In this document: piece by piece, positions 599 through 35,488 of the stretch
Layout: each line of letters starts with the position of its first letter
Position numbering within the stretch: the stretch's first letter is position 1
IMG/VR virus record: IMGVR_UViG_3300045125_000144
Span: 1-35,668 of that record
Length of the DNA: 35,668 nt
Origin: a virus
Direction: 5' to 3' (one strand)
Notes under the pieces: model-generated
Told to the model about the DNA's origin: nothing
The model's input: only the letters and a program-made list of their open reading frames with translations
Databases searched by the model: none
Program-made: the position numbers and the translations under genes

Positions 599-1132
599 AT
601 GGAATCTAAATGTTAGATATACAAAAGAAAAAACAGGACAAAGAAATATTACAAGAAATATGAGAAATTAGTCTTAAATTACTTTTATTCCAAAACATCT
701 GACCCACAACTATCAAAAGATTTGAGTGCAGAAACAATGAGCAAAATAATTATTAACTATCAGTAAGAAACTTGATAAAAAAACTTTAGATAATTGGGTG
801 TATATTGTTACACAAAATCATTTTTATGATTATGTTAGGAAAATTAACAGAAAAAAATATAAAAATATACTTCTTAGAATGGTAATTCAGAAAGAATTGA
901 CCCTGTTGAAATTAGACCTGATTATGAAAATCAATTAAATTCTGTGAATGATATTATGAAAATTTGTCAAGATGAAACTTTAAAAAATTTTTATGAAAAT
1001 AAATATTTGAAACACTATGACAATAAGACGATTATAAAAGAAATGAATTTTTCTTATCAAAAAATCAAAGATTTTGACCAAAAATTAATAACTTTTTTAA
1101 AGACAAATCATACTGATAACCTATTTACATGA
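599..1132 (+). CDS. gp55-like RNA polymerase sigma factor (late transcription)
   Basis: Joining frames (indels near 612, 655, 765 and 885) gives about 178 residues starting MESK; T4 gp55 has 185. A sigma region 2-like stretch reads LDNWVYIVTQNHFYDYVRKI, resembling the core-binding/-10 helix of sigma-70 proteins (W..T.N...DY.RK). The C-terminal third reads FYENKYLKHYDNKTIIKEMN, then FSYQKIKDF, which resembles the helix-turn-helix of region 4. T4 gp55 is a minimal sigma that binds host RNA polymerase and recognises late promoters, so a gene of this size next to replication genes fits well. The window contains a recurring promoter-like motif upstream of structural genes that this protein could read (inference). 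It could instead be an ECF-type sigma; a sigma-family protein of some kind is the firmer claim. Confidence 0.62.
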
Positions 1133-5469: not shown

Positions 5470-5964
5470 TTAGTAATTATTTTCAGCGATATCGTAACTC
5501 AATGTTAGAGTAATTTTTTGTACTTCATCACTAGTATATTCATTTTTTCCAAAATCAATATTACTAATGAAAGCACCAAAAAGTGTAAACTGTTGAACAC
5601 CAACAAGAGTTGGGTCAAGAGCAACAAGTCTTAAATCTTTCTTATAACTAGAAGCATAACCCATTCTTCCTGTAAGGTTTTCAGCACATAATCTATACCA
5701 TTCCAAAATTAACTGAACGGAAGATGGTCCTTGTAAATCAATCAATTCTACAGTCAAATCATCGAAGGTAACATGACCTGCAACTTTTTGCTCATAGTTC
5801 AAATATTTAATTGGAACTGAATTGACTTTCATTTTTGGTCTATCAACTGCATTAACAATCCAAGTATATTTACTCATTTCAATATCTTGAGGGAAGAACA
5901 ACTCAAACCTATTAGGTCTGAGTGGTTCATATTGGGTAGGTACATTTCTAAATCCTTGTGGCAT
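5470..5964 (-). CDS. Tail tube protein (gp19-like)
   Basis: An intact 164-residue frame; T4 gp19 has 163. It forms the inner tube of the contractile tail through which DNA passes. The N-terminal MPQGFRNVPTQYEPLRPNRF, then FPQDIEMSKYTWIVNAVDRP, and later HVTFDDLTVELIDLQGPSS and the segment near 120-130 (LRLVALDPTLVGVQQFTLFG) match the conserved layout of T4-like tube proteins. It starts 36 bases after the sheath gene stop, as in T4 (18 then 19). The upstream sequence is A-rich without a Shine-Dalgarno site. A terminator follows. Confidence 0.92.
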   Translation of the reverse strand: MPQGFRNVPTQYEPLRPNRFELFFPQDIEMSKYTWIVNAVDRPKMKVNSVPIKYLNYEQKVAGHVTFDDLTVELIDLQGPSSVQLILEWYRLCAENLTGRMGYASSYKKDLRLVALDPTLVGVQQFTLFGAFISNIDFGKNEYTSDEVQKITLTLSYDIAENNY

Positions 5965-6000
5965 TTTATTTCTTTATTTTAAGTAGTTTCTTTTTATTGT

Positions 6001-8782: not shown

Positions 8783-8790
8783 TATAAATA
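8783..8790 (-). promoter_or_regulatory. Late-promoter-like motif upstream of sheath gene
   Basis: The minus strand reads ACTATTTATAATAAA, 19 bases before the gp18 ATG. The same motif precedes several other structural genes here. The core TATTTATA is the reverse complement of the T4 late promoter TATAAATA. It falls just beyond the stop of the gp5-like gene (8842). Confidence 0.5.
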
Positions 8791-8841
8791 GTTTTTATTT
8801 TTATGGTTTAATTAATTTTTATGTTTTTAGCTAATAAATTT

Positions 8842-9772: not shown

Positions 9773-12700
9773 TTATACAGGTAACTTAATTTTTACAGTA
9801 TCACTATATGTTACTGAACTTAAATTGATATTATTAATTGTTGTAAAATATTTTTTTGATGCAATTCTATAAAAATATGTTGTTCCATATAGTTAATATA
9901 TCATTTGTTGCTGTCCAATCAAATGTATAACTATAACTTGTATTATCAAATTCATATGCTGTTTCTGCTGAATAAACAGTATTACCTGTCAATCCTGTAT
10001 TTGTAATATCATAAAATTGATGAATAAAACTTCCAACAATATTATTTTCAATTAATTTATCAATACTCCAATTTATTGTATAATTTGGACCTGTTGCTTC
10101 AATTAACTCCGTTACTATTGCATTATAGTTTGTAAAATAAATAACAGAAAATACACTTTCATTAATTGGTGTATATAATAAAACTATTTTATTAACATCA
10201 AAAGTTGAAATAGTATAATCAATATTTTTTGTTAAAAGTAAACCATTATAATAGACTAGGACATCACTACCATTAATTCTTTGATTAGATAATGTTATTT
10301 CATAATAGCCCGTACTAGCACTAACTATTTGGCTTGAACCTGTAAATTGTAAATCTTCTTTTACAACTTTTTGTGTGTTTAAAGAATTTCTATAATAAAC
10401 TCAACAGTTGTAACATCATCATGTAATGATGTTAATCTTTGATTTAAAATAAAATGAACGATTTCTTAAACTTGGCAATGTAACCTGTATTATTATTATC
10501 TACATTCTATTGTCTTTTGCAATGTAATACCGCTTTACAGAAACAATTACATCACCAACAGGTTCAAATGTTATTGTACAATGCCGTAACCGAATTTTGT
10601 AAAAATTGCATATTTTCAATGAATAATGAACTAGTATCGTTTTGTTGTGTATTTATCTGTAAAACAGGTTTATCAGGCTCACTTTTTGATACAAAATAAT
10701 AATCATCTAAATTATTATAATTATTATACAATGGTGTATATTCTGTTTTATTTAATAATGTACTAATACTTGAACCTGTATTTGTTGTAAATGTGCTATA
10801 ATTAAAATATCTTTGACTTTTATTATAAAGGCTTTGTTCCACCTGTAAAATTAGTATAACTTTGTACTGTATACCCTGAAATTACGAATAAGTCGCATTG
10901 ATTATATGGTGAAATAGCACTAAATGTTGTTGCAGTTTGAGGACAAGTTGCATATTCAAAGTATGGTTTTACTAATATATTCGGAATCATCATCTAAATA
11001 CAGAACCCGACTACTATAGCTGTTGATAAAATATTTGTACGCTGTAAACGCTGTATATCCGGCTGCTTGATAATGTATAGAACTGGTGTATCAGCAGAAT
11101 CCTGTAGTGTTTCTATCATATTTATGTAACAGTATAGTAGAAATTTGTTGTGCTTGCTGATAATGTGGATGTTGCTGATGTAAACTCAAATGTTATTGTT
11201 TGACCTGTTTCAGAGGTCTTATTGAATATTGATGGCCTCGTGTTAGACTTGATAATGCTATTTTGGTAGCACCTGCGCCACAAGAAGCTCTGATTTCTCA
11301 TTTTCACATATTTCACCACCCCATAATGGTTGTAAGATTTTACATTTTGTGTCAGCACTTGCAAATGCATCCGTATCAATGCTACCTCCGTATCACTAAG
11401 ACTTGACATCATCCTTCTATTGTAGCATAACAGTTATATCGATCTTCATAAAGTATCAAAAAACTCAGTCTCAATTGTTGGCGATGCAACTTCTGTTTCG
11501 ATTGGTAATTGTACTTCTGTTTGCAAATTCAGAACCATCATCTATACCATGTTTATAACTATATTTTTGTGGTAAATACAGTATTTCTTATGCTAAATAC
11601 ATCACTTACAATTGTAGTAGCAGGTATAAATTGTTTTACAAATGTATCAAAAGTATTATCTAAACTATCAATATAATTTTATAAATCCATACAATTTCTT
11701 TTATTTGATTATTATCGGCATAATAATCATAATATAAGTTTGTTAATGATGGTAATGTGAACCAATTGCTGAATCACTTACTTTTCTATTTTGGGCATTA
11801 ATAAATGATGAATATATTTTATCAACATATTGTGCAAAAGTCAATTGAGTTGTATCAATCTTATTTGAATCTCTTTTGAGGATATGTTGAAGAGGTACTA
11901 CCTATACTTGAAACAGGATAATTATATTGTTGATTAAAATTATAAACATCACATTCAATTGCTTTAGAAGCGTCAATATTTAGATTTACTTCTTTTGTAT
12001 TTATAATTAATCTTGAATCATTTACATCATAATTTGTATTTCTTCCTGCTTGAAGAATGCGTACTTAGCACTTTCATAATAAACCCAAGATTTTTTATTA
12101 TCAACAGTCTTGGTTACATTATAATCCTAATTTTCTGTAAATATTAATAAAATCTTGCCCACTATCCTCAATACCATTTGATTGAAAATATTGACTTAGT
12201 TGTAAATGTTGGATTTATGGGAAAACCATCTAATCATATGCAGGTTTAACTAATACCTTCATCAGTATTATTTATTGTAATAATCGCATGATTTACGTAT
12301 TAATTGGTGCATCAACTACATAAACATGTCTCATCAAAAGTAATTAAACAATCAGGCGCACCAATAAATGAAAATATTGTTTCAATTGCCTTTTCTTGTT
12401 CCTTTTGATTTCAAAAACCAAGATGTATTTATTGTAAGTCTTCTCCAAAGTTCAATATCAACTTCAGCAAGAGAAGCACTTATATCCGTATCACCACTTT
12501 TATCATTTGCAAATACTGATGAAATTAAATCTTTATCATTGATAATATTTTGTGCCTTCCAACCTAAAGTTCTTGCAAGATTTTTAATTAATGTATCAGG
12601 TATATTATTTATTTTATCATAAGTAACAGTATTGATATTCATTAATGAATCAATAAATAACTTAATTTCATCAATTTCTTTACCATACACTTTTAAATAT

Positions 12701-13757
12701 TGATTCAGATTTAAATGAATCAGTACTATCAAAATCAATTAAAGTTTTTGGAATAAATTTACGAATAATAAGATTTGATTTATATTCATCATATAAATCA
12801 CCAACTTCAAATAATTTCTCTAAAAAATCAACATAAACAACTGATTCAGTATCTAAATTGTAACCATCACTTTTTAATGGAAAAGTAAAATTATAATCAA
12901 TAAATAATAATTCACCATCCTCATCCAACTTGAGGTATTTTAAATTTAAATATATATTTTGGTAGTATTTTTACTTAAAAAATATCTTTCAAGGTCATTT
13001 AAACCACCATAAAATTTATTAAACTCAATATCATTTGGTTTTAAAACAAATTTTTGACTTATATTTTGTGGTGGTAGAATTACCTGAAAATGGATTACCA
13101 TTTACACTAAAATATAAATATGATGAATTTGAATTAGCTAAAACCTGTAAATCCATTTATAGCATAGTCAGTATTATTATGAAGTAATACATAATCTAAA
13201 AATCTTGTGGTTAAACTATTAATACTATTGGAAGATAAGACTTAAATTATCATAAAGATTAATATAAAACGGATTATCAATTACAGTAACAGGTGTTCTA
13301 AATGTTGATACATCATTCGTAGAATCATATGTATAACCTATAATATTAAAATATGATATACCACTAATATATGTGTCAAAAAATAAACCTCCCGGAAATT
13401 TATTAATAATATTATTTACTGCAAATCTAAATTTCTCCTTTAAAGAACCATAAGCAGCATAACTTGATAAATTAGTTACGTCAAGATTTAATTTTAATTT
13501 ATTAGTTATTTTAATAAAATTATTAAGTTCATCTAATATTATTAATTTTTAAACTCGCTAAGAGATACATTCTTTTGGAGTTATTGTAATTCTCTTTTCT
13601 CTTTTAATAGTTGTATTAGTTGAAAAGACTAGTTGATAACTTTACACCACCATTAAATATAGTAGTCTGAAAACTATCATTGAATACCGAAAAGATGGTA
13701 TAGAATCTTTGTTAACTGCTTTACTAACCAATGTATTTTAATCTTTTGCCACTTACT
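9773..13757 (-). CDS. Large tail/baseplate structural protein, C-terminal beta repeats
   Basis: About 1,300 codons are open on this strand if many indels are bridged; it could be one gene or two, and I cannot place an internal boundary. The start is unclear: no clean ATG follows the promoter palindrome, and the first coding signal appears near 13757 (SGKRLKYIG, then SKAVNKDSIPSF after an indel). A middle part is clear at 12382-12928: DGELLFIDYNFTFPLKSDGY, then ARTLGWKAQNIINDKDLISS, then ELWRRLTINTSWFLKSKGTR. The last resembles a motif I associate with baseplate-type proteins of distant T4-like phages. The C-terminal third (9773-11412) is beta-rich, with YYEITLSNQRINGSDVLVYY followed by NGLLLTKNIDYTIS, and FnIII-like endings. 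This suggests exposed adhesion or wedge domains. Located directly upstream of the hub gene in the same transcript, a baseplate wedge or fibre role is likely; the exact T4 counterpart is unknown. Confidence 0.5.
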
Positions 13758-13762
13758 ATTGA

Positions 13763-13796
13763 TTTTATATAAATAGTTCGAACTATTTATATAAAA
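13763..13796. promoter_or_regulatory. Perfect 34-bp palindrome with two face-to-face late-promoter-like motifs
   Basis: The 34 bases are identical to their own reverse complement, centred on TTCGAA. Each arm contains TATAAATA (13768-13775 plus strand; 13784-13791 minus strand) and, read toward the gene, ACTATTTATATAAAA. On the plus side the motif ends 10 bases before ATG 13802; on the minus side the leftward structural gene begins about 10 bases away. It thus looks like one compact control region for both divergent structural blocks. A hairpin function is also possible, although AT-rich. Confidence 0.7.
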
Positions 13797-13801
13797 CTAT
13801 C

Positions 13802-16800
13802 ATGAGAATTTTAAATTTTCTAAAAACCAATAACGAAACCGTAAATCTTTAAGAGTAAAGACAAATATTGGTGATAAATATATCAATGTTAGTCTTGGTC
13901 AAACTTATGAATCTTTGGATATATTATCTTTTAAAGATTTTTCAAAAAGATTTATATAGACTTTTTGATGCTGATTATGGTGTAATTGTTGGTAGAGTAT
14001 TAGGTCAAGGTGTTGGAATACCAAATTGTAGAGTTTCTGTTTTTATTTCTCTTGATGAAGAAACAACTTCAACACCTAGTACTTTAGAAGATATTAAAAA
14101 ATAGAAGCCACAGCAATATATCCATATACAAGTGTATTTGATAAAGATAGTGAAGGTAAAGTTTATAATCTGTTACCAAAATATAGTAAAAATAGAAATT
14201 TTAATGGATTTCCTGATAATGATTATGGTATTGGTTCAACACCTAAAACACCTGTTGGTACTTTTCCTGAAAAAGAAGAGGTATTAATTAATGAAACTGT
14301 TGCATATGTTTATGATAAATACTTAAAATATACAACAGTTACAAATGAAAGTGGTGATTATATTTTAACTGTTCCATCAAATAGGACATATATCTGTACA
14401 CATGTCTTGTGATATCACAGATATTGGCAGATTTTCAACCACACCTGCATTGTTAAAATTAGACGGTTATCCTGATAATTCTTTTACAGAAGATGGTACA
14501 AGAATTAATGACCAATTACCATTAGAAACATTACCAAATATTGATATACAAAACATACCAATAAGTGTAAAACCATTATGGTCTCAAGATATTGATAATA
14601 CAAATATTGGAATTAATCGTTTAGATTTTACATTAAATAAAAAAATTAAACCATTTATTACTGTTGTTGGAAATCATTTACACAAAACAATAGAACTTGT
14701 AGGGTGATCGAATAATGTTTAGACTTTTCATGGGTTTAAGAAATTTTTGTATTGGTAAATGTCAAGATTTGTCATCGACTGATTTTTCATTAATAATTGG
14801 GTTTAGATTATGTATTGATTTTATCGATTTTGATGAGTTTATAGGTATACGCATTGAGATACAAGTTTGCCGTCTTGTTATAATTTTGCTTTTTGTATAA
14901 AAATTAAAAATATAATACCATTTTTTAGTTTATTTTTATTTAAAAATAAATATTGTGCATTAAATGGCGGTAGAAATGATTATGAGGCATTTGATATAAT
15001 TAATCTTGGCAAAACTAATGTTTGTACAACAAGTGAGGCATTAAGCGTTTTAGATGGCGATATCTGACGATTTATTTATACAATCAAGCATATAAGTGAT
15101 AATTTAAATTTTAAAATATTTTCATTAGATAATAAAATTCCTGATGAGGATGCTAAGTACAAATTAATAAATGATCCAATTAATAGTCAAATTTATGAAA
15201 ATGGGATTATGAAGAAAATATAAAATTTTTTGCAAGATACAAAATATATTACATATCAACATCGATGGTAATTTTATCTTACAAATATTATGTGGATAGA
15301 AAAAAAGTAATAACAAATGAAAATGGGGATTTAATTGAGGTTTCAAATGATTCTTCAGACGGTGTTTATACTCGAATTCTAGAGGACATTTATACGTAAC
15401 AAACAATGCAGAAATTGATAATCCACCAACCAGAAATAGAGTTGGCAGAAATTGCAATGAAAATAACCTCAATTATTAGATTACGGTAATCCAAATAATA
15501 AATAATAATAGTACATTTAAGCAAATGGATTTGGAACCATGGTATTTTTAAATACGGTAACATATATTCAGTAGCACAATATAATAAAGTTAATTATGCT
15601 AATATGATACCTGAAAATGAAGCAAACGTTGAAACATCTTTTTTCACTGATATTTGTAGTCCACTGCAAGGTTTTTTGAACGTTTTTGATAATTATGATA
15701 ATGCTAAATCATTTACAGAGCAAACAAAATATTATATTTTTTGGTGCAGATGAAATAAACGAAGAAAGTTTTACAACACCATCAAATATACCAAGTTCAA
15801 ATACGTTGGATAACAATTATTTAGATTATTATAATCATATTACGTTAATAGGAAAAGATGAAAATAATACAACTCGATGCTTCTGGTGATTTAATAACCG
15901 ATAATTATAACACCACATATGAAAATACTTTAAATAACAGAATAAAGCCATTAATAAATATTATGAATTTGGTGATATGAATATGGTACTATCAAATAGT
16001 AAAAAAGGTTTGAATTTGTATAATAAATTAATAACAGACCAATTAAGTATACGAATACTAACCTATACGGACATTAATTTTGAAATACCATCTGGTTTGA
16101 ATAATGAATGGGATATTAACATTGAATTAGGTAACACACAAAGAAACGTGTTTTTTCAATATAATGTTGATGGTACATTGTTTGGTGATAATAAAGAATA
16201 CATGTTCACGTTATCAAATCAAGTACCAATATTAGAATTTACTGATTCAAATGGATTCGCTAGAGTTTTTGATATAACATTTGACGCTGTTAATTTTTAT
16301 AGATGGTATCAAATACCAGCTAATTTAACATCAAATTTATCACCTGAATTTTGGAAATTAAATATAGGTTTGTCTGGTGATTTCGAAATAAAAAAACATT
16401 TGGTAGAAAACTCTAACAACAATATATACAAATAATACAATAAGTAATTTTATAAACTAAAAATGGGTGTAGTACGTGCATTTTCAATAAAAAATCAATG
16501 GATGAATTTAAGTTTATACTTTATAAACTTTATGTATAAGACAAAAAATAATCCAATAAATAATAGAGTCTGTGAATGGATAACTAAAAAAGATAGATTA
16601 AAAGATAATAATAATCCAATAGGTGGTGGACAAAAAAATAATAAATGGTTGGCTAATGGCGATAATATTAAAACAGATTTTATAGAAATAAATAAAGAAG
16701 ATTTTATTTATTTATTTGAAAATAAATTTTTAGGTTTTAGAATAAATAAAAATAACTTAAAAGGTTCTTATAAAAGAACTGATAATATAACATACGCTAA

Positions 16801-22202: not shown

Positions 22203-22210
22203 TATAAATA
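22203..22210 (-). promoter_or_regulatory. Late-promoter-like motif upstream of HExxH gene
   Basis: The minus strand reads ACTATTTATAATAAAA, ending almost at the ATG (gap of 6 bases). It follows the capsid gene terminator. If it acts as a -10 element the message would be nearly leaderless. Confidence 0.5.
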
Positions 22211-22216
22211 GTAAAT

Positions 22217-24066: not shown

Positions 24067-24074
24067 TTTAAATA
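24067..24074 (-). promoter_or_regulatory. Late-promoter-like motif upstream of gp23
   Basis: Minus strand ACTATTTAAATTAAAT, 23 bases before the gp23 ATG, in the 93-base gap after the scaffold gene. It differs by one base from the motif before other genes. A dedicated promoter for the major capsid protein would be expected. Confidence 0.45.
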
Positions 24075-24136
24075 GTAAGATTTTTTTTATTTTTATTATT
24101 TCTTACCAAAATTATAGTTAAGTAATTGTTTAAACC

Positions 24137-26204: not shown

Positions 26205-27362
26205 TTAGTTACCAATAATTTTTCTTATCGAATCATCATATTTTTTTACATTATTGTTTTGAATATTTACAGATTCTTGTAAATTATCATTTTTAGTTTC
26301 TAAAAATAAATATGCGTTTGGTGTAGATGGTGTTGCAACAAGGTCAAAACAGATAAGTTCAAAATCATCTTGAACAATATTTTTTCCACCTACTTTTTTA
26401 ACACTACCTAATCCTCTTGATGAAATACCAAGTTTAAGATTTCTTTGTAGATATAATGCAATTTTATCACCAATAGTCCAACCAATACCATCTCTCATAA
26501 ACGAGTCACTAACAATAATGTCAAGTGTTCCAAATACTGCGTTGCCTGACCACCAAGTTTTTGCAATTCTATGAGATATATTTTGTAATGAGATTGTAAC
26601 TGAATTACCGTTCCATAATGCATATCCATTATCTCTGACCAAAAATGTACTATTTGGTGTTTCAATACATACAACTTTACCATTATAATTTTGTTTTTCT
26701 ACTTTAATATCTTCAATATTAATTTCATTCAATTCAAATTCATTATCCCATAATGATTGATTGGGTATAAAAAGAGAATTAGTATTATTATCTAAAATTT
26801 CTTGAGCAGTAATAAAAAATTTTTCTTTTTTATTATTATTTACATAAAATCTATGATTTGGTGTTACCAAGAGGTCTATATACCTTCCTTTTAGTGAAAT
26901 CATTTCACCATTATAATCTTCATTTATTACAGTTAATACAGGTTGTAATTCAATTTCATTGGTTTCTGTATTTAATGTAAAAACTTTTTCACCAACAATA
27001 ACATCTTTAATTAATTTCCAACCCGATTCTGTAAAAACTTCTGCTGTTTCACGGTGACATTCGGGATGGTCTGCTTCATTAAGTGCTGCATAATCATTTA
27101 TAAGTTTCTGATATTCATTAATTTGTTTTTCTAATATTGGTCTTGGATATACCCTACCATTACGATTTAATACATCAGCTTCTTGAAGTTTACAATCAAT
27201 ATAGAAATGACCATCAAAATCATCTATTTTAACTTTTGAATTTAAATCTTCAAAAATTTTTTTATTATTTATAGTTAAATCATTACTAATGATACCCGCA
27301 TCAGTTTCTACTAATAAACCATAACCTTCTTGCCCCTCTTTTAGTAGTTGTATATTAGTCAT
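26205..27362 (-). CDS. Prohead protease (gp21-like) interrupted by an in-frame intein
   Basis: One intact frame of 385 residues. Removing the intein (residues 102-253) leaves 233 residues; T4 gp21 has 212. The protease matures the prohead by cutting scaffold and capsid proteins. Family marks: VLNRNGRVYPRPILEKQINE, then the catalytic histidine H99 in NEADHPE. After the intein come SVTISLQNISHRI, and the nucleophile region GISSRGLGSV (S314/S315 of the precursor). FELICFDLVATPSTPNAYL is also typical. The extein join would read ADHPE-SVTISLQNISH, exactly the conserved spacing of these proteases. The ATG overlaps the previous stop by one base. Gene order portal, hypothetical, protease, scaffold, capsid is as in T4-like phages. 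Splicing must precede protease activity. Confidence 0.95.
   Translation of the reverse strand: MTNIQLLKEGQEGYGLLVETDAGIISNDLTINNKKIFEDLNSKVKIDDFDGHFYIDCKLQEADVLNRNGRVYPRPILEKQINEYQKLINDYAALNEADHPECHRETAEVFTESGWKLIKDVIVGEKVFTLNTETNEIELQPVLTVINEDYNGEMISLKGRYIDLLVTPNHRFYVNNNKKEKFFITAQEILDNNTNSLFIPNQSLWDNEFELNEINIEDIKVEKQNYNGKVVCIETPNSTFLVRDNGYALWNGNSVTISLQNISHRIAKTWWSGNAVFGTLDIIVSDSFMRDGIGWTIGDKIALYLQRNLKLGISSRGLGSVKKVGGKNIVQDDFELICFDLVATPSTPNAYLFLETKNDNLQESVNIQNNNVKKYDDSIRKIIGN
26604..27059 (-). mobile_element. Mini-intein (152 residues, no homing endonuclease) in the prohead protease
   Basis: Precursor residues C102 to N253. Block A: CHRETAEVFTESGW, starting with the cysteine nucleophile. Then IKDVIVGEKVFTLN. 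Block B: YIDLLVTPNH, with the TxxH motif at T167-H170. Block F: VVCIETPNSTFLVRDNG. Block G: ALWNGN followed by S254, the +1 extein nucleophile. Between B and F only about 60 residues remain, too few for a LAGLIDADG or HNH endonuclease, so this is a splicing-only form. The residue before the terminal asparagine is glycine (G252), not the usual histidine; such variants splice in other inteins. No frameshift interrupts the frame in this stretch, unlike most genes of the window. Confidence 0.93.
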
Positions 27363-28126
27363 TAATTATTTGAGTTTAAGTTTTTGATTTCAAAAAGTTT
27401 TGACAAACTGTTTATTGCTGATTGGGAATCATATTCCAAATTATCAATGAAATCAAATGTTTCTGTTAAAACTTCTGAACTGATATTATCTTTTTCATTT
27501 AATAAGAAAATTCTTTGTTGACTTTTTATAATTTTCAAAAACATGTTTTTTCTGTTTTTCATCACCTTTAATAAAACTAGAAATAACTTCCAATTCATCT
27601 TGCTCCATGTTGGAAAATTTCTCTTCTAATTTTTTTAGCCAAATTAAAAATATGACTTACTTTAAAAGTATTATCAGTTTTTTTAACTTGATTATCTTGT
27701 TTCATTGTCAATGACTCAATTAAGAAATTAACCGATTCATGTAATTTATTGACATTGGTAATTTTTTTAAAAACACTTTCATTAATGACATTTTCAATAT
27801 TTTTGTTAAGTTTTAATTTATCTTCTGATAATTCAATTTCTTTTAAATCAAATTTTTGAATTTTTTTATTTTCTTTTAGTAATATATTTTTATCAATCTT
27901 AGATAAAGCAGAAACATTAGCTTCAATAAATCTTAAAGATTCATTATAATCCAAATTATGTTTCTTTTAAATTTTCATAAATTGTATATTCTAACATAAA
28001 GAATAGGTGATGATTTAATTGTCTTTAAAAATCTTCATATAATTTTTTATACTTATTAGTATTATCAATTAAATCTTGAGAATATGCTTTATTTAATTTT
28101 GACTTGACATTACCAAAATTTATCAT
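27362..28126 (-). CDS. Unknown protein between portal and protease genes
   Basis: About 254 residues after bridging indels near 28030, 27962, 27620 and 27520. It starts MINFGNVKSKLNKAYSQDLI, continues with SSPILYVEYTIYENL, and is then helical and rich in Lys/Glu/Asn. Examples are LSKIDKNILLKENKKIQKFD and LHESVNFLIESLTMKQDN. It ends SLSKLFEIKNLNSNN. T4 has the small core proteins gp67 and gp68 at this place; this one is larger but similarly helical and charged, so a prohead core role is possible (inference from position). A promoter-like motif lies 14 bases upstream of its ATG. The protease ATG overlaps its stop. Confidence 0.62.
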
Positions 28127-28140
28127 TTTTTTGTGTTTAA

Positions 28141-28148
28141 TATAAATA
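28141..28148 (-). promoter_or_regulatory. Late-promoter-like motif upstream of the gene before gp21
   Basis: Minus strand ACTATTTATATTAAA, 14 bases before ATG 28126 and 17 bases after the portal stop. Same motif and orientation as at 8783, 22203 and 35481. Confidence 0.5.
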
Positions 28149-28164
28149 GTATAAAATATCATTG

Positions 28165-29989: not shown

Positions 29990-29997
29990 ATTAAATA
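29990..29997 (-). promoter_or_regulatory. Weak late-promoter-like motif upstream of the portal gene
   Basis: Minus strand GCCTATTTAATAAAAA, 20 bases before the portal ATG, in the 71-base gap after the terminase stop. It keeps CTATTTA but lacks the preceding A. Confidence 0.35.
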
Positions 29998-30040
29998 GGC
30001 AAGAAATAGTTTCACCTAACAAATATGTATGGGTTGTTAT

Positions 30041-31803: not shown

Positions 31804-31811
31804 CTTAAATA
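31804..31811 (-). promoter_or_regulatory. Late-promoter-like motif upstream of terminase
   Basis: Minus strand ACTATTTAAGTTAAAA, 10 bases before ATG 31793, partly overlapping the stop codon of the preceding gene. The gap matches those at 13784 and 35481. Confidence 0.42.
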
Positions 31812-31812
31812 G

Positions 31813-35440: not shown

Positions 35441-35480
35441 TATCGAAATATCGTATTTTATACATATAATTAGAAAAAAC

Positions 35481-35488
35481 TATTTATA
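35481..35488 (+). promoter_or_regulatory. Late-promoter-like motif before the truncated right-end gene
   Basis: Plus strand ACTATTTATAATAAAA, 10 bases before ATG 35499. It is the same sequence and spacing as at the palindrome (13784) and shows that the motif follows gene orientation, not a fixed strand. Confidence 0.5.

Follow-up and report, generated by a model that had tools for sequence, protein, structure and literature searches.

A conserved palindrome between two divergent phage genes as a probable pair of back-to-back late promoters

The genome of bacteriophage T4 contains exactly two close opposite-strand pairs of the late promoter box TATAAATA: one is back to back at the 26|51 junction, and the other is face to face at 4|53. 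The 26|51 pair (TATTTATAAATA) comprises one-block late promoters without a −35 element, which fire outward from the 50 bp separating two divergent structural genes and whose boxes overlap by 4 bp. Scarlato et al. are said to have described it, in Virology in 1989, as overlapping divergent late promoters. At 4|53 (77349–77371), the boxes lie in a 47-bp gap between divergent genes, symmetrically about the centre (TATAAATA-N7-TATTTATA), and point inward. A diverged late box, CTAAATA, together with a diverged gp55, has been reported for the T4-like phage Aeh1 (PMC1524935). In bacteria, the bidirectional promoters described by Warman, Grainger and co-workers share a −10 element and have starts 7–25 bp apart, with 18 bp as the commonest distance (PMC10268837). 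Exclusion at such promoters is documented in E. coli, where it is of consequence only if one of the two directions is highly active (PMC12825309).

Here, we describe a comparable site in an IMG/VR virus record of 35,668 bases, the whole of which was analysed (hereafter, the window). The window is error-rich, with frameshifts breaking conserved genes. The same sequence of about 90 nt, which we take to be the nanopore rapid-kit adapter, was found in inverted orientation at both ends (positions 3–92 and the last ~90 bases), and the record looks like one untrimmed nanopore read, probably with its adapters left on. Among the recognisable genes, the plan is T4-like. The minus strand carries genes for the tail tube (5473–5973), the tail sheath (about 8 kb), the major capsid protein (22–24 kb) and the portal (about 29–30 kb), the sheath and portal being named through relatives. 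A head protease gene on the same strand (26208–27365) has a Hint/intein-like insert, which was matched by thymidylate synthase, ribonucleotide reductase and PhoH profiles (families with inteins) and is probably an intein. The names ribonucleotide reductase, PhoH-like and terminase, as used for the window, come from reading only.

At positions 13763–13796, the window contains a perfect palindrome of 34 bp (halves TTTTATATAAATAGTTC|GAACTATTTATATAAAA), which is its own reverse complement. The next longest perfect palindrome in the window has 20 bp; when the window was shuffled 200 times with dinucleotides preserved, the maximum was usually 14–20 bp and reached 26 bp once. The exact 34-bp sequence was searched for in other viral contigs with no match, and named phages gave no direct DNA or protein matches around the site. 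The palindrome is not a read artefact, because relatives carry it. Thus, the observation of an earlier note on this DNA, that a perfect palindrome stands out in an error-rich read, is borne out by self-complementarity, shuffles and relatives alike.

The same note had placed the palindrome at the split between two opposite blocks of very large structural genes, and it does lie at a divergent junction between structural blocks. On the minus strand, the left gene begins with GTG at 13752 (GTG GCA AAA; 9790–13752, lower boundary approximate) and is frameshifted in the window. The right gene starts at ATG 13802 on the plus strand, and its 5′ part, which aligns with relatives, covers 13802–14704, with the 3′ end lying beyond 14704 and not delimited. 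In accurately sequenced relatives, both are intact ORFs, of 1310–1330 aa (left) and 786–1067 aa (right), and the gap between them, as listed for two relatives, is 49 bp. Neither protein matched a PHROG or Pfam family, and a search of bacterial genomes for relatives of the right gene found none. It is plausible that both genes encode tail proteins, for which they are candidates.

Based on the results below, we suggest that the palindrome is very probably a pair of identical late promoters standing back to back, with their cores 6 bp apart, which would fire outward. Each promoter would be a single block, ACTATTTATATAAAA (group consensus ACTATTTATAATAAA), without a −35 element. The right arm (13782–13796, plus strand, core CTATTTA at 13783–13789) would drive the right gene, and the left arm (13763–13777, minus strand, core at 13776–13770) the left gene. 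Their PSSM scores were 17.3 and 16.9, respectively, the best possible being about 18.3. The spacer between the cores, TTCGAA, occupies 13777–13782. The right core ends 12 nt from its ATG and the left core 17 nt from its GTG, both within the genome-wide mode; in most cases, the motif lies 11–18 nt from the start codon. If the core occupies the same −13 to −7 interval as in T4, transcription would start at 13796 (+) and 13763 (−). Both coordinates coincide with an outermost base of the palindrome, and in each RNA this first base would be A. The mRNAs would then diverge, their leaders being some 6 and 11 nt long. We infer both the promoter nature of the motif and its late timing, as well as the exact start sites.

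Compared with T4 26|51, the site has the same kind of one-block promoters without a −35 element, the same outward orientation and a similar gap of ~50 bp between divergent structural genes. It differs in that the box of the T4 pair is TATAAATA and its boxes overlap, whereas the consensus here is ACTATTTATAATAAA and the cores are 6–7 bp apart; moreover, the pair in the window genome is a perfect palindrome. Paired late promoters are already known from T4, and what differs here is the box and the spacing. A late promoter of the T4 type carries TATAAATA at −13 to −6 in the gene direction, while the sense motif of this group is ACTATTTATAATAAA, although a single block at −10 without a −35 element is common to both. 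The Aeh1 box also differs in sequence from that of the group, and Aeh1 keeps the T4 direction. As in bacterial bidirectional promoters, symmetric DNA would drive both directions here, and one polymerase would probably exclude the other (PMC12825309, PMC10268837); however, the cores in the window are separate, with predicted starts 33 bp apart, and do not form a shared −10 element.

The direction of the motif rests on statistics, because the core shares its letters with the T4 box in reverse. For four relative records (about 310 kb), words were counted within the 60 nt preceding each ORF start. The top 8-base word in the gene direction was ACTATTTA, with 53 occurrences versus 1.9 expected, the counts coming from related genomes and hence not being independent. 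The group consensus upstream of genes, again in the gene direction, was ACTATTTATAATAAA. At co-directional starts of G001, G002, G004 and G006, CTATTTA occurred 53 times in sense and 5 times in antisense (3.7 expected per strand). Over positions −50 to −1 relative to the core, the information never exceeded 0.2 bit, i.e., there is no −35 element. As a positive control, T4 was passed through the same pipeline; TATAAATA ranked first, with 13 sense and 0 antisense occurrences, and therefore the method recovers a known late promoter in the right direction. A related motif, (C/A)TATTTATAATAAA, was found in sense in Flavobacterium phage immuto, which is distantly related by its portal protein and where TATTTATA occurred 20 times in sense and 5 times in antisense.

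These counts bear on the arrangement assumed in the earlier note, namely two boxes of the T4 type, TATAAATA, that face each other across 8 bp. In that case, transcription would start at the palindrome centre and each transcript would cross the other box. The word is indeed present on both strands, as TATAAATA at 13768–13775 (+) and TATTTATA at 13784–13791, with 8 bp between them, and the face-to-face pair of T4 4|53 shows the same geometry. However, at the same co-directional starts of G001, G002, G004 and G006, TATAAATA was found 8 times in sense and 31 times in antisense, and [AT]ATAAATAGTT once in sense and 13 times in antisense. In addition, the window holds 17 copies of TATAAATA against 13.8 expected, which is no enrichment, and the right arm of most relatives reads AATAAATA instead. 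The sense motif of the phage group is thus (A)CTATTTAT(AATAAA), the complement of TATAAATA; therefore, the motifs stand back to back across a 6-bp gap and point outward, the opposite of the 4|53 boxes. Consequently, we consider inward-facing boxes improbable. The idea of a two-way late control site survives as a probable two-way late promoter site, but the strand on which the note had read the motif was wrong. It should be noted that searching such genomes for the T4 word TATAAATA selects the wrong strand.

The relatives were collected by IMG/VR scans, for which the right-gene protein and alignments of both flanking proteins served as queries. Besides the window, eleven distinct genomes keep both genes divergent. 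The element TATAAATAGTT-N2-3-AACTATTTA was present in the gap in 12 of the 12 distinct genomes (the window included; the genomes are related, and the counts are not independent), with the cores always 6–7 bp apart. This is the conservation between the same two genes that had been proposed as a check on the site. Only the central two or three bases vary freely (CG, ATT, CAG, AAG, GTC, AT, GT and ATG in the window and relatives). The arms were invariant in all 12 genomes, whereas of the 58 synonymous third positions examined in the right gene, only 14 were. The outer right arm of the relatives is usually TTAAAA rather than TATAAAA, and perfect symmetry over the full 34 bp is therefore a feature of the window genome; one relative (L041) has 16-base arms identical to those of the window around a 3-bp centre. 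Two distant relatives (L046 and L047, 36–39% identity) serve as a natural control: their right gene is co-directional with the preceding gene, the palindrome is absent and one half-site only, AATATTTATCTAAAAAT, is found. Thus, the symmetry goes with divergence.

Single copies of the motif were found elsewhere in the window, which contains 10 strong copies versus 0–7 (mean about 2) in 20 shuffles; they precede, among others, the genes for sheath, capsid and portal. On the minus strand, copies lie upstream of the tail sheath gene (8785–8791, score 17.6), the major capsid gene (24069–24075, 16.0), a small gene that follows the capsid gene (22205–22211, 17.1), a head-block gene (28143–28149, 17.1) and the portal gene (29992–29998, 12.7), as well as before the presumed terminase region (31806–31812, 15.2; terminase by reading only). 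On the plus strand, one copy precedes a PhoH-like gene (1121–1127, 16.0; PhoH by reading only). In relative G001, sites resembling the copies at 24069–24075 and 29992–29998 precede genes of phrog_138 and phrog_213, respectively. A second divergent junction of the window has a good plus-strand promoter (35480–35486, score 17.9) with a degenerate minus-strand copy (CTAATTA) beside it, and a pair resembling it was found in G001 (104465/104473). Other divergent junctions (G001, G002, G006 and others) have similar core pairs with spacings of 3, 7, 11, 15, 22 and 23. The spacing is mostly 3, 7, 11 or 15, i.e., in steps of four, among few independent junctions. At some junctions, face-to-face pairs ACTATTTATNATAAATAGT, a palindrome of another type, stand directly before start codons (G001:52318/52334, G002:51983/51999, G006:121454/121470 and G001:15387/15403).

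The copies also bear on whether the palindrome is an operator on which a dimeric phage regulator controls adjoining promoters. Dyad symmetry, a conserved core spacing of 6–7 bp and a free centre are typical of a dimer site. However, the half-site of a dimeric operator would be found only in pairs, whereas this one occurs singly and directionally before many single late genes. Moreover, the core spacing varies among the other divergent junctions, and the 49-bp gap needs no further promoter-like element. On this basis, an operator appears highly improbable. A perfect AT-rich palindrome of 34 bp can extrude, but the least credible reading is a structural DNA element (a cruciform or a site of recombination, packaging or replication) or else a hairpin in the RNA. 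Relatives tolerate free variation at the two or three central bases as well as outer arms that differ from each other. The site is tied to the divergent junction and is missing from genomes with the co-directional gene order, and the palindrome would be untranscribed under the promoter model.

Returning to the back-to-back promoters, perfect symmetry results when one good copy of the promoter is abutted to another, and no further role is needed. Because the cores are 6 bp apart, the footprints of two polymerases must overlap, and initiation would therefore probably be exclusive at any moment. Closeness between divergent genes is shared with the overlapping late promoters of the 26|51 kind, the footprint overlap here being deduced from geometry. 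The earlier claim that only one polymerase could bind at a time hence remains plausible on the same geometric grounds, without the facing motifs from which it had been derived. Mutual exclusion is a reasonable inference, and late phage promoters could work in the strongly active regime in which exclusion matters. The note had also raised a switch or an even-splitting device as possible roles; exact equality of the two directions is not favoured by the outer arms, which are unequal in most relatives. It is also possible, but rather doubtful, that the T4 late box was replaced in this group by its opposite-strand look-alike ACTATTTATAATAAA, read by the small phage sigma factor described below, and that the close pair is kept for mutually exclusive initiation, which would link the output of the two large structural operons. 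Competition at divergent promoters has so far been studied mainly in E. coli, and a conserved, close and symmetric pair would offer a natural case of polymerase competition at strongly active divergent promoters.

Three relative records encode two proteins of the sigma-70 family, of about 300 aa and 173–184 aa. The small one (173 aa in relatives) is frameshifted in the window, where its fragments were matched by reading at approximately 600–1130 (+). Its relative L014:9267–9788 matches Sigma70_r2 (7.9e-6) and phrog_1740 (2e-8), and its C-terminus ends in an invariant DxLFT. The C-terminus of T4 gp55 is hydrophobic and acidic and forms the clamp-binding end (PMC2988020). No match to gp55 was obtained with PHROG profiles (phrog_234 and phrog_12791), nor was the pairwise comparison of the small sigma with T4 gp55 significant. 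The gp45 clamp family PF02916 was found in T4 but not in G001, G002, G006 or immuto, and the structure predicted for the small sigma was of low confidence (pLDDT 39). The motif may be recognised by a sigma factor of the phage, probably by the small one, which we put forward as a candidate late sigma factor, as a lead only. The larger factor, with regions 2 and 4, adjoins the small one (L014:7375–8286 and relatives). For this uncultured marine phage group, the analysis thus yields a testable late promoter consensus together with a candidate sigma factor.

A Bacteroidota host is suspected, on the basis of the kinship with immuto by portal protein and of Shine–Dalgarno-like sites, which are nearly absent (2–6% of starts versus 64% in T4). 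In the upstream regions of G006, TGTAAGAT and TGATATAT were also enriched and possibly represent a second promoter class, early or middle.
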